DNA from: Clavibacter michiganensis
GTDB lineage: Bacteria > Actinomycetota > Actinomycetes > Actinomycetales > Microbacteriaceae
Direction: 5' to 3'
DNA length: 64,000 bases
NCBI GenBank assembly: GCA_002150995.1
Contig: MDHJ01000001.1
Coordinates: forward strand, 806,001-870,000
The translations under genes were made by a program, and so were the position numbers. Below, in pieces: positions 55,717-59,743 of the stretch. The number at the start of each line of letters is the position of its first letter. Within the stretch, counting starts at the first letter, position 1. The notes under the pieces were generated by a model that saw only the letters and a program-made list of their open reading frames with translations, was not told the DNA's origin and did not search any database.

Positions 55717-56904
55717 ATGTCCAGTCTCAGCACAGTGGCGGGATTCCTCGTCAGCCGCCTCCGGCAGATCGGCATCTTCATCGCGCTGGTCGCCATCGTG
55801 GTGCTGTTCCAGATCCTGACCGACGGGACGCTCCTCGAGCCCCGCAACGTCACCAGCATCGTCGTCCAGAACGCGTACATCCTGATCCTCGCGATCGGCA
55901 TGGTGATGATCATCATCGCCGGCCACATCGACCTGTCGGTCGGGTCGGTCGTCGCCCTGGTCGGCGCCGTCTCCGGCGTGTTCGCCGTCAACTGGGGCTG
56001 GCCCTGGTGGGCGTCGATCATCGCGAGCCTCGTGGTCGGCGGCCTCATCGGCGCCTGGCAGGGCTTCTGGGTGGCGTACGTCGGGATCCCCGCGTTCATC
56101 GTGACCCTCGCGGGCATGCTGACGTTCCGCGGCCTCGCCCAGATCGTCCTCGACAACCGCCCCATCACGCCGTTCCCGGACGAGTACGTGGCGGTCGGCG
56201 CCGGCTTCCTGCCCGACCCCTCGGACGGCACGTCGTACCTGGAGTGGGTCACCGTCACCCTCGGCGCCCTCGCGGCCGTGTTCCTCGTCGCCCAGCAGCT
56301 GCGCGAGCGCCGTGCCCGCGTGAAGCTGAACCTCGAGGACGAGCCCTTCGCCTGGTTCATCACGAAGCTCGCCTTCATCGCGGTCCTCGTGCTCGGCATC
56401 ACGTACCTGCTCGCCAGCTACCAGGGCACGCCGATCGTGCTGGTCATCCTCGCGGTGCTGGTGCTCGTCTACACGGCGGTGATGAACCGCAGCATCTTCG
56501 GCCGTCACATCTACGCTCGAGGCGGCAACCTCAACGCCGCGCAGCTGTCCGGCATCAACACGAAGCGCGTGGACTTCCTGCTCTTCGTCAACATGGGCTT
56601 CCTCGCCGCCCTCGCGGGCATCGCCTTCACCGCCCGCAGCAACTCGGCCCTCCCGGGCGCCGGCAACGGCTTCGAGCTCGACGCCATCGCCGCGGTGTTC
56701 ATCGGCGGCGCGGCCGTGACCGGCGGCATCGGCACCGTGACCGGGGCCATGGTCGGTGGTCTCATCATGGGCGTGCTGAACAACGGCATGTCGCTGCTCG
56801 GCCTCGGCACGGAGTACCAGTCGCTCATCAAGGGCCTCGTGCTCCTGCTGGCCGTCGCGTTCGACGTGTTCAACAAGAGCCGTGGAGCCAAGTCCGCGAC
56901 CTGA
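55717..56904 (+). CDS. gguB: Sugar ABC transporter permease (GguB type)
   Basis: This 395-residue branched permease has about ten helices. GHIDLSVGSVVALVGAVSGV and GGNLNAAQLSGINTKRVDFLLFVNMG are the family signatures, and the long central insertion (residues about 165-205) is characteristic of GguB/XylH-like members. It ends the arabinose-locus operon, followed by a strong terminator. Confidence 0.9.
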   Translation: MSSLSTVAGFLVSRLRQIGIFIALVAIVVLFQILTDGTLLEPRNVTSIVVQNAYILILAIGMVMIIIAGHIDLSVGSVVALVGAVSGVFAVNWGWPWWASIIASLVVGGLIGAWQGFWVAYVGIPAFIVTLAGMLTFRGLAQIVLDNRPITPFPDEYVAVGAGFLPDPSDGTSYLEWVTVTLGALAAVFLVAQQLRERRARVKLNLEDEPFAWFITKLAFIAVLVLGITYLLASYQGTPIVLVILAVLVLVYTAVMNRSIFGRHIYARGGNLNAAQLSGINTKRVDFLLFVNMGFLAALAGIAFTARSNSALPGAGNGFELDAIAAVFIGGAAVTGGIGTVTGAMVGGLIMGVLNNGMSLLGLGTEYQSLIKGLVLLLAVAFDVFNKSRGAKSAT

Positions 56905-57075: not shown

Positions 57076-57696
57076 GTGAGACCTACCGTCGGAACCAGTT
57101 CCCACCGTCCCCGTCGATACCCCGCGCGGGCACCGAGTCGCCGCGCGACGGCGTGCCTCGGCGTCGCCACGGCCCTCGTCTTCGCGTCGACGTCGGCGCT
57201 GCCGGCGCAGGCCCGAGAGATCCCCGTCGGCACACACGGACCGGGGCTCAGCGCCGCGTCCACCGTCGTCCCGCTCGATGCCGCTCGCATCGAGGACCTG
57301 GTCGGCGAGCTGGAGGCCTCGCACCTGCCACGCGCCGCTGCGGAGGGGTCGGAGGGCATGCTGACGAACTTCTCCCTGGGCCACGGAGTCAGCATCGCGG
57401 TGCCCTCGGCTTCCGGGGAACGCGCGGATGCCGCCGTGTCGGCGTCGCTCATCGGCGCGGGCTGGGAGAGGGGCCCCGGCGTGTACGTCTCGTTCGACAA
57501 GACGGATCAGGAGGCCCTGTCCGCGGGGGTCGGCGCCGCGCTCGGCGTCGCCATCTGCGCCGCAGGGCCGGTCGCCTGTGGGATCGCGACGGTGGTCATC
57601 GCCGCTGCTGCCGTATACGTGGTGAAGCGGGGACTGTGCTCGGGAAGGCGGGAGCTGAGGATCTACGCCTCGACCTTGCAGGGTCGTCGTGTCTGA
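57076..57696 (+). CDS. Unrecognised secreted protein with C-terminal hydrophobic, Cys-containing segment
   Basis: In this 206-residue protein a basic n-region is followed by the signal core CLGVATALVFASTSALPAQA (cleavage before REIPV). The mature part is about 155 residues, beginning with a polar region and ending in YVSFDKTDQEALSAGVG, a helix-like ICAAGPVACGIATVVIAAAAV and a short basic tail with a third Cys (KRGLCSGRRELRIY). I recognise no family. The layout recalls secreted hydrophobic bacteriocin-like peptides, which is a guess. GTG 57076 gives a proper signal peptide. Codons such as AGG, AGA, GCT and GTA are commoner than in neighbours. Confidence 0.6.
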   Translation: MRPTVGTSSHRPRRYPARAPSRRATACLGVATALVFASTSALPAQAREIPVGTHGPGLSAASTVVPLDAARIEDLVGELEASHLPRAAAEGSEGMLTNFSLGHGVSIAVPSASGERADAAVSASLIGAGWERGPGVYVSFDKTDQEALSAGVGAALGVAICAAGPVACGIATVVIAAAAVYVVKRGLCSGRRELRIYASTLQGRRV

Positions 57697-57771
57697 CGCG
57701 TCATCGTGCGTCGATGCCATAGACGTAGAGGACCCGCCGGGTGTCGAGCATCACGATGAGGACAGGACGAG

Positions 57772-57945
57772 ATGAAGGCGCCTCTGCTCATCTGGATCGT
57801 CGGCTCCGCTGCGGTGCTGATCGTGGGATGGATCCTCGAGGGAGGGGATGGCGAGCGGTACGCATCGGTCGTCGCCGTGCCACTGGTCATCGTGTTCATG
57901 CTCTCCCTGGTGTCGAGATCGAGGCGGCGGCGTCCGCCCACGTGA
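57772..57945 (+). CDS. Small two-helix membrane protein (57 aa), unknown
   Basis: ATG 57772 gives MKAPLLIWIVGSAAVLIVGW, then a short acidic loop (ILEGGDGERY), a second helix ASVVAVPLVIVFMLSLV and a basic tail RSRRRRPPT. AGGACGAG precedes the start. Two helices with a positive C-terminus after a secreted peptide gene would suit an immunity or accessory protein, but no family is recognised. Confidence 0.5.
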   Translation: MKAPLLIWIVGSAAVLIVGWILEGGDGERYASVVAVPLVIVFMLSLVSRSRRRRPPT

Positions 57946-58028
57946 TGGCCGCGGCGCGGTGCCGGCGCAGACGCGCTCGACGACCGCGGCAGGGAGGCCC
58001 GACAGACCGCACGACGAGGAGGGGGACG

Positions 58029-58439
58029 ATGCACAAGCGAACAGCATCCACCGTGGTCGTCGCGACGGTCCTGGTGACCGCATCCGTGTGGCGTGTCGTC
58101 GACCAGGGCGGTGACCCGGTCAGGGCGGCCGTCGTCGCGGCCGTCTCGATGGCAGGACCCGTCACGGTCCTGGTCGTGAGACGCAGGAGAACGCGTCGCG
58201 GGGCCGACGATCGGGAGCATGCGCTGGCGGCGGAGGTGCAGAGCCGGGTGCTCCGCGACACCCTCGTGGTGCTGACGGTCGCGATCCTCGTCGGCGTCGT
58301 CCAGCCCGGCATCAGCGCCGCGCTCATGGCGTGCGGGGTGCTCCTGGTCGCCCTCGCGGACTTCCGGCTGCGGTACTCCCACGCTCGCTGCACGCGTCGA
58401 GCCCTCCCGGCCGCCCGGTCCTCAGCGGCCCCCTCGTGA
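58029..58439 (+). CDS. Small membrane protein (136 aa), unknown
   Basis: ATG 58029, with a strong GAGGAGGGGG ribosome site, encodes about four hydrophobic segments (residues about 8-24, 31-50, 75-92, 93-110) separated by a very basic loop, VVRRRRTRRG. The C-terminal tail is basic and Ala/Pro-rich. No family is recognised. It is the third gene of the unknown cassette and ends 110 bases before the convergent xylA. Confidence 0.55.
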   Translation: MHKRTASTVVVATVLVTASVWRVVDQGGDPVRAAVVAAVSMAGPVTVLVVRRRRTRRGADDREHALAAEVQSRVLRDTLVVLTVAILVGVVQPGISAALMACGVLLVALADFRLRYSHARCTRRALPAARSSAAPS

Positions 58440-58549
58440 TCCTCTCCGCGGGCCTCGGCACGACGATCGCGACGCGCGGACGACGAGAGCCGCCCCCGTG
58501 ATCCGGGAGCGGCTCTCGTGTGGTGCGGCCGTGCCGCGGGCGGGGTGCG

Positions 58550-59743
58550 CTAGGAGCGCGCGCCCATGAGGTGCTCGAGCGCCAGCTGGTTGAGGCGCAC
58601 GAAGCCGAAGCCCTTGCCGTCGAAGTACTCGTCGGCCGCGAAGTCCTCGTAGGAGGAGCGGTCGGCGAGGATGTCGTCGTAGGACTCGCCCTCGTTCAGC
58701 GTCGGGGTGTCGATCTCGGCGACCTTGGCGGCGGCGAGCGCCTCCTGGACCTCGGGGTCGGCGCGGAACGCCTGCGCGCGCTCCTTGAGGAGCAGGTACA
58801 TGCGCATGTTCGCTGCGGCGGAGTCCCACACGCCCGTGATGTCCTCGGTGCGGCTCGGCTTGTAGTCGAAGTGACGGGGGCCGTCGTAGGAGCGGCCGCC
58901 GCCCACGCCGCCGTTCTCCAGCAGGTCGACGAGCGAGAACGCGTTCTGCAGGTCGCCGTGCCCGAAGACGAGGTCCTGGTCGTACTTGATGCCGCGCTGG
59001 CCGTTGAGGTCGATGTGGAAGAGCTTGCCCTGGTACAGCGCCTGCATGATGCCGGCGGTGAAGTTGAGGCCCGCCATCTGCTCGTGGCCCACCTCGGGGT
59101 TCACGCCCACGAGCTCGGGGCGCTCGAGGGTCTCGATGAAGGCGAGCGCGTGGCCGAGAGTCGGCAGCAGGATGTCGCCGCGGGGCTCGTTGGGCTTCGG
59201 CTCGATGGCGAAGCGGATGTCGTAGCCCTTGTCGGTGACGTAGTCGCCGAGGAGGTTGACGGCCTCGCGGTAGCGCTCGAGCGCGCCGCGGACGTCCTTG
59301 GCGGAGTCGTACTCGGCGCCCTCGCGGCCGCCCCACATCACGAACGTCTGGGCACCGAGCTCGGCGGCGAGGTCGATGTTGCGGAGGACCTTGCGGATCG
59401 CGAAGCGGCGGACCGCGCGGTCGTTGCTGGTGAAGCCGCCGTCCTTGAAGACGGGGGCGGAGAAGAGGTTCGTGGTGACCATCGGCACGACGATGCCGGT
59501 GTCGCTGAGCGCGCCCTTGAGGCGGTCGATCTGCTTCTGGCGCTCGGCGTCGGTCGAGCCGAACGCGAAGAGGTCGTCGTCGTGGAAGGTGAGGCCGTAG
59601 GCGCCGAGCTCCGAGATGCGCTCCACGCCCTCGACGACGTCGAGGTCGGCGCGGGTCGGGCCGCCGAAGGGGTCGGCCCCCGTGTAGCCGATGGTCCAGA
59701 GTCCGAACGAGAACTTGTCCTCGCGGGTGGGGGTGAGCGCCAT
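58550..59743 (-). CDS. xylA: Xylose isomerase
   Basis: This 397-residue TIM-barrel enzyme interconverts D-xylose and D-xylulose (also glucose/fructose in vitro). The actinobacterial class I type is shown by [17 protein letters not shown], the catalytic histidine region [30 protein letters not shown], the metal ligands in [14 protein letters not shown] and [28 protein letters not shown] precedes ATG 59743. No xylulokinase gene adjoins it; the neighbour is a divergent aldo/keto reductase. Confidence 0.96.

Follow-up and report, generated by a model that had tools for sequence, protein, structure and literature searches.

A 64,000-nucleotide stretch of the Clavibacter michiganensis genome (assembly GCA_002150995.1, contig MDHJ01000001.1, positions 806,001 to 870,000; hereafter the window, whose own coordinates are used throughout) contains three plus-strand genes, P1, P2, and P3, that fill the 1645-bp interval between gguB and xylA. 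Judging from their sequences, these genes probably form a cassette for a secreted bacteriocin and its cognate membrane immunity, exchanged at a fixed site between Clavibacter species. This interpretation fits best because it brings together a secreted hydrophobic domain with cysteines, an adjoining membrane protein, genomes that hold only the partner gene, and cassette exchange. The gene pair is conserved, both of its genes are under constraint, alleles have been replaced at the fixed site, and some loci retain the partner alone.

The host genome is a single contig of 3.27 Mb. In the window, gguB, which we take to be the end of an operon of the ara/chvE-gguAB type (gene names are presumed from the families), ends at position 56904, and xylA occupies 58550-59743 on the minus strand. 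An earlier, sequence-only reading had placed here, between a sugar operon and xylA, an unrecognized three-gene cassette with a layout like that of bacteriocin/immunity sets. The three open reading frames (ORFs) were located as claimed, and hydropathy analysis agreed with the description of a signal-peptide protein with a hydrophobic C-terminal part, a 57-residue two-helix protein, and a 136-residue multihelix protein. P1 (57076..57696, +; 206 amino acids) is the proposed bacteriocin precursor on the grounds of its relatives, its ratio of nonsynonymous to synonymous divergence (dN/dS), and its regular association with a partner gene. P2 (57772..57945, +; 57 amino acids) has two hydrophobic segments, predicted to span the membrane, and a basic C-terminal tail, and is the proposed immunity protein by hydropathy, dN/dS, and the same association. 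P3 (58029..58439, +; 136 amino acids) has four such segments and, from hydropathy and its relatives, is proposed to be a second immunity protein without its regulator.

The gguB-xylA site in 18 Clavibacter genomes

Both gguB and xylA were present in all 18 genomes of the genus, separated by 160 to 10069 bp. P1 and a partner gene occupied the site in six genomes, a partner gene alone in five, and neither in seven, and P1 alone in none (0/18). The six sites with P1 and a partner comprised three with P1 and P2 (G004, G009, and G017), two with P1, P3, and a separate XRE gene (G015 and G016, the latter with an additional P3-XRE fusion and a transposase fragment recognized by eye), and that of the window's genome, with P1, P2, and P3. 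Partner-only sites held either a lone P2-type gene (G010 and G013) or P3-XRE fusions (G001, G007, and G003). Five intervals were empty, at 160-234 bp (G002, G006, G008, G011, and G014), and that of G005 carried other genes, neither P1 nor partner. The G012 interval (L057, 1293-2477) is AT-rich DNA (GC, 0.56) with a 394-amino-acid ORF that did not match the P1 or partner families. In G003 (L049, 5604-15672), about 10 kb separates two P3-XRE genes, the second copy being partial; by eye, this insert carries sugar hydrolase, ATP-binding cassette (ABC) transporter, and glycosyltransferase genes, and the site therefore also takes larger inserts.

The neighbors of the site were 92-99% identical in protein sequence, whereas the P1 alleles were only 33-54% identical to that of the window. 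Synonymous divergence (dS) between the P1/P2 genes of the window and the alleles at the same site was 1.5-2.1, compared with 0.12-0.25 for xylA and gguB. Because the dS of P1 and P2 lies so far above that of the flanking genes, the allele of the window and the others were most likely exchanged rather than diverged in place. At its far edge, the cassette of G015 carries a piece similar to the xylA 3' end (L036, 5365-5499; 73% over 51 amino acids), which such an exchange may have left behind.

Codon use set the three genes apart from the rest of the window, as the sequence-only reading had noticed. The codons AGG, AGA, GCT, and GTA together make up 4.9, 5.4, and 3.7% of P1, P2, and P3, respectively, against a mean of 0.36% and a maximum of 2.4% in the comparison set of 49 window genes of 100 amino acids or more; in the cassette they are about twelve times commoner than the window average. 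The GC content of third codon positions (GC3) is 0.849, 0.839, and 0.874 in P1, P2, and P3, below that of every one of the 49 genes (mean, 0.975). Among G004, G009, and G017, dN/dS ranged from 0.13 to 0.28 for P1 and from 0.18 to 0.32 for P2, and both genes look coding and constrained as proteins. Uniform conservation, ordinary codon use, and homology of P1 to a housekeeping family had been named in advance as findings that would speak against an acquired cassette; P1 occurs at the site in only 6 of the 18 genomes, and neither of the other two was found.

The P1 family and its membrane partners

A search with the single P1 sequence recovered relatives in 12 of 99 related genomes, of which nine, counting that of the window, belong to the genus; a match in G054 (L052), sitting in a different long ORF, was rejected as chance. 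Profile searches extended the family to 12 of the 18 genus genomes (weak distant relatives included), at least 18 of 299 family genomes (best 11 candidates per genome scored), and at least 5 of 394 class genomes (best 8 scored). In the phylum, a match was obtained in at least 1 of 396 genomes, the window's own, a count that does not establish rarity because no more than 11 candidates were scored in each genome. Besides Clavibacter, seven other genera of the family contained members. Plasmid searches with three P1-family proteins and an initial scan of named genome contigs with P1 gave no match.

Members share a C-terminal domain with a Y-[IV]-x-[FL]-N/D-x-x-[DE]-Q-like motif and four cysteines, of which the second and third are separated by 20 residues in 32 of 38 members and by 21-22 residues in the other six. 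Four or more cysteines were present in 38 of 40 members, the exceptions being the window's P1 and L070, a partial frame, with three each (the 40 leave out L052, the partnerless L099-L102 and L104-L106, the interrupted L103, and L132). Alignment with relatives placed the start of P1 at the GTG codon at 57076, downstream of further in-frame ATGs. A predicted signal peptide (residues 1-46; 57076..57213, +) was recognized by eye and by hydropathy from an Arg-rich n-region, a hydrophobic core at residues 26-42, and an AQA cleavage motif; two more hydrophobic segments lie at residues 152-168 and 167-183. In AlphaFold2 models, the N-terminal half of the mature part forms strands and is followed by the C-terminal core domain (57352..57696, +), which in the window carries Cys161, Cys168, and Cys188. 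A model of the last 114 residues, built from a 25-row alignment, had a mean predicted local distance difference test (pLDDT) score of 80, rising to 93-94 over residues 81-114. Helices occupy residues 50-57, 61-69, and 73-93 of that model, with short strands before and after; in all, three helices and six strands make up the core, with low confidence for the first two of these strands. The models and hydropathy agree on one long hydrophobic helix at P1 residues 165-185 (57568..57630, +). At the position where the other 24 rows of the core alignment carry the fourth cysteine, the window's P1 has an arginine. Because this conserved cysteine is missing, the toxin encoded in the window may have lost some of its strength or begun to decay, with the partner genes retained, and on this point the copy could mislead.

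The association of P1 with a small membrane protein was close to a rule, in line with the layout suggested by the sequence-only reading. A partner was defined as a same-strand ORF of 50-140 amino acids starting -30 to +160 nucleotides from the P1 stop, with a 19-residue hydropathy peak of at least 1.8; a cut of 2.2 was used first and lowered after partners with lower peaks had been seen, so the 2.2 figure is the unadjusted one. At 1.8, a partner lay directly downstream in 37 of 40 members and 27 of 30 clusters (70% identity), compared with 11 of 143 control genes (Fisher test on clusters, 1.3e-19); at 2.2, the counts were 25 of 40, 17 of 30, and 9 of 143 (1.3e-9). The partners found are membrane proteins of 57-136 amino acids and, with their relatives, fall into eleven groups (BLAST linkage at an E value of 1e-3). 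Outside Clavibacter, 19 of 22 members had a partner, which overlapped P1 in 16 of the 19 pairs if its most upstream start is taken. Partner similarity tracked P1 similarity (Mantel r, 0.45 over 27 pairs; 0 of 2000 permutations as high), a correlation for part of which shared descent may account.

The secretion signal of P1, recognized by eye and by hydropathy in the plant-associated genus Clavibacter, might also be expected of a secreted factor directed at the plant. Cognate membrane partners, overlapping genes, partner-only loci, and the occurrence in seven other genera all fit antagonism between bacteria better, and the sequence gives no hint of a target in the plant; we give this explanation very little weight.

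P2 and P3 may be related to each other. The link runs through the orphan proteins encoded in G010 and G013, which connect P2 with the N-terminal half of P3-type proteins at 33-36% identity (E values from 3e-5 to 6e-8), a similarity that is weak for membrane proteins because the database was small and composition correction was off. The three genes of the cassette, although present as described, are better read as one P1 gene with two partner genes than as genes for three unrelated proteins. A search with P3 also gave matches in G078 and G089 at an E value of 4e-4.

The XRE genes of this locus suggest a role for some partners in regulation. A separate XRE gene follows P3 in G015 and G016 (HTH_3 scores of 57.6 and 61.2 bits; cutoff, 23), and of the four P3-XRE fusions (G001, G003, G007, and G016), three scored above the HTH_3 cutoff and that of G001 fell below it at 18.2 bits. 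The P3 of the window has no XRE part. These arrangements would suit peptide signaling, in which P1 would be a secreted signal and P3, with XRE beside or fused to it, a membrane receptor-regulator. Against such a role, partners of about 57-90 amino acids leave no room for a regulator domain in addition to two membrane segments, the short partners outside Clavibacter mostly overlap P1, and the fusions in G001, G003, and G007 stand at the site without P1. We therefore consider signaling improbable as the function of the cassette.

Comparison with known bacteriocin systems

In agreement with the sequence-only reading, the three proteins convincingly match no recognized family: scans of Pfam and NCBIfam gave nothing above cutoff for P1, P2, P3, or the scanned P1 relatives. 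PHROGs yielded nothing for the three proteins, and PADLOC a single weak match, for P2 (E value, 0.04). PDB sequences, searched with P1-family profiles only, gave best E values of 0.21 and 0.11. Weak matches to MauE, Cation_efflux, CwsA, DUF202, MakA, and Ntox22/25 were judged compositional. The proposed structure-model searches added no guidance to these profile results, since the best hits of two P1 AlphaFold2 models (pLDDT, 67 and 80) had E values of 0.63 and 2.4 in Foldseek and Z scores of 3.7 and 4.1 in the VIA fold search. A literature search, with most subscription papers beyond its reach, found no published description of the P1 gene family. An antimicrobial protein, CmmAMP1, is known from C. 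michiganensis.

Among the closest known systems are SDP and YIT of Bacillus subtilis. The hydrophobic SDP toxin collapses the proton motive force and is accompanied by the membrane anti-toxin SdpI and a co-encoded repressor; the membrane anti-toxin of YIT, YitQ, is described in the same source as lacking similarity to SdpI, and some strains retain only sdpRI (PMC6818787). Shared with the P1 cassettes are a secreted toxin with a hydrophobic C-terminal region, an integral membrane anti-toxin, a regulator encoded next to the immunity gene, homologues in several places in the genome whose groups each have their own C-terminal domain, and the strains that keep sdpRI only, comparable to the partner-only loci here. 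In contrast to SDP, the P1 family has four conserved cysteines, and P3 and XRE form one chain in four genomes. SdpB (TIGR04033) gave weak matches in all 18 genus genomes, none above cutoff (0/18) and none at the gguB-xylA site, and neither P2 nor P3 matched the SdpI family in Pfam or NCBIfam. One SdpB-like gene, in G012 (G012:C1:2914952-2915764), scored just below the family cutoff (177.3 against 178.4 bits), which suggests a separate SDP-type system in one member of the genus.

Geobacillin 26 and alicyclobacillin 24 (Geo26 and Ali24, class III) are Sec-secreted proteins of about 240 amino acids for which a membrane helix is predicted at the C terminus; their action is narrow and directed at the membrane (PMC13176240). 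P1 is predicted to have the same combination of a Sec signal peptide and a C-terminal transmembrane helix (segment 167-183 by hydropathy and eye; helix 165-185 in the models). The main text of PMC13176240 contains neither the word immunity nor the word cysteine and so offers no basis for comparing partner gene and cysteines with those of the P1 family. No class genome (0/394) scored above the cutoff of the Geo26A profile (NF035925), and the window genome had no match at an E value of 0.01.

The lactococcin 972 family, including mediterrocin, resembles the cassette in its Sec signal peptide, short mature protein, and cluster membrane protein presumed to confer immunity (PMC12345188). It differs in being beta-stranded and in having a seven-segment DUF1430 immunity candidate with an ABC protein, and no Pfam or NCBIfam match to this family was obtained for P1, P2, P3, or the P1 relatives.

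Bacteriocins of the genus are described as acting for the most part between species, with marginal activity inside a species, as with CN1 and CN2 of C. nebraskensis (PMC11748494). Bacteriocin typing of Clavibacter by spot assay is in use (PMC12628682) and is decades old, the reference lists of both papers including Gross and Vidaver 1979. CN1 and CN2 share the genus with the P1 cassette, and an activity that is mostly interspecies is what would be expected of a cassette that differs between species. The available text of PMC11748494 names no gene for them, and we offer the link to the P1 cassette as a proposal.

Several observations weigh against a bacteriocin. P1 showed no homology to any proven bacteriocin in the profile scans; no SdpC match was found for P1 at E values up to 1 or for 15 + 25 members at E values up to 0.1 (the model, presumably TIGR04032, was not checked for presence in the NCBIfam library); the Geo26A profile matched only 2 of 25 P1 cores weakly (best E value, 0.033); and fold searches of the P1 models were uninformative. 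In the comparison of G004, G009, and G017, dN/dS did not exceed 1 for P1 or P2, so that diversifying selection, and with it any sign of a point-mutation arms race, was not seen. The P1 of G017, one of six at the site, is frameshifted, and three members of the paired branch (L043, L067, and L129) have no partner. The window and the retrieved Clavibacter loci were the sole source of the 143 control genes, all confidently called, and the hydropathy cut was lowered following a first look. Finally, a distant branch of seven proteins (L099-L102 and L104-L106) has the same C-terminal domain (hhalign probability, 97; E value, 1e-10; alignment of five of the seven) and no such partner, and the one member measured has an ordinary GC3 of 0.961.

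This partnerless branch, with its similar neighborhoods and the ordinary GC3 of that member, would suit an envelope component, with P1 as a structural or stress protein that is secreted, attaches to P2 and P3 as membrane anchors, and kills nothing. All 37 pairs found have a membrane protein as the partner, as the search criterion itself demands, which is also compatible with such anchoring. A structural pair poorly explains why the partner alone is kept at 5 of the 18 sites, why both are absent from seven, and why alleles were replaced between little-changed neighbors, and we judge this explanation unlikely, if less so than signaling. The sequence-only reading had named either an antagonism or an envelope-stress cassette; partner-only sites (5/18, against 0/18 for P1 only) favor the former and make the latter less attractive. 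Two genomic hallmarks of a bacteriocin with its immunity, a linked cognate partner (37/40) and a partner kept without the toxin (5/18), were both found.

Proposed action of the cassette and remaining features

On the best reading, by analogy, P1 would be a Sec-secreted, membrane-acting bacteriocin similar in action to SDP/SdpI or geobacillin 26 and a member of neither family by profile. We infer its export, disulfides, and killing, as well as protection and sensing by its partners, as follows. P1 would be exported by Sec and its signal peptide removed, after which the C-terminal domain would close disulfides around a hydrophobic helical hairpin outside the cell. This domain would insert into the membrane of related cells, which would be depolarized or permeabilized. 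The N-terminal half of mature P1 would act as a soluble prodomain or a receptor-binding part. In the producer membrane, P2 (and P3) would bind the inserted P1 helix and block it. SdpI is thought to report toxin binding to transcription together with SdpR, and XRE-linked P3-type proteins would probably do the same.

A broader proposal is more tentative, and we hold it with less than even confidence: that P1 represents an undescribed family of disulfide-bonded, Sec-secreted membrane bacteriocins of the Microbacteriaceae, whose cassettes are swapped at fixed chromosomal sites and underlie the interspecies typing of Clavibacter, and that one branch carries its immunity protein and XRE repressor as a single membrane chain, which both blocks the toxin and reports it to transcription. 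If true, the killing long known among Clavibacter species might stem in part from this cassette, the actinobacteria would gain a toxin family that has no profile, and the regulator-fused immunity protein would be a one-chain sensor. The cassette predicts which genomes hold toxin and protection, protection only, or neither, and because it differs between species at one fixed site, the question of interspecies inhibition becomes directly testable.

A further frame at 58331..58501 (+) overlaps P3 at its 3' end; over its final ~26 residues it is similar to the lone P2-type proteins found in G010 and G013. P3 may thus run at its 3' end into the tail of another P2-type gene, possibly a remnant, although this reading is weak because part of the match is a shared inverted repeat. 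That repeat, a perfect 11-bp one at 58483..58519 (no strand assigned), marks the right boundary of the variable interval in sequence and alignment and was recognizable in five of the six other intervals aligned. It is probably a terminator; a promoter and terminator scan of the locus gave no result, the terminator scan requiring a T-run and leaving the repeat unflagged.

Among the P1 relatives mentioned above, L043 has no start codon at its N terminus, and L067 lies, by eye, near a transposase-like gene. L100, L101, L104, and L105 occupy similar neighborhoods, each between two genes for similar proteins of ~133 amino acids. The window's own genome also carries, outside the window, a second distant P1 relative of 194 amino acids (L132, G000:C1:325361-325630), which is followed by a gene for a 147-amino-acid membrane protein of another type.
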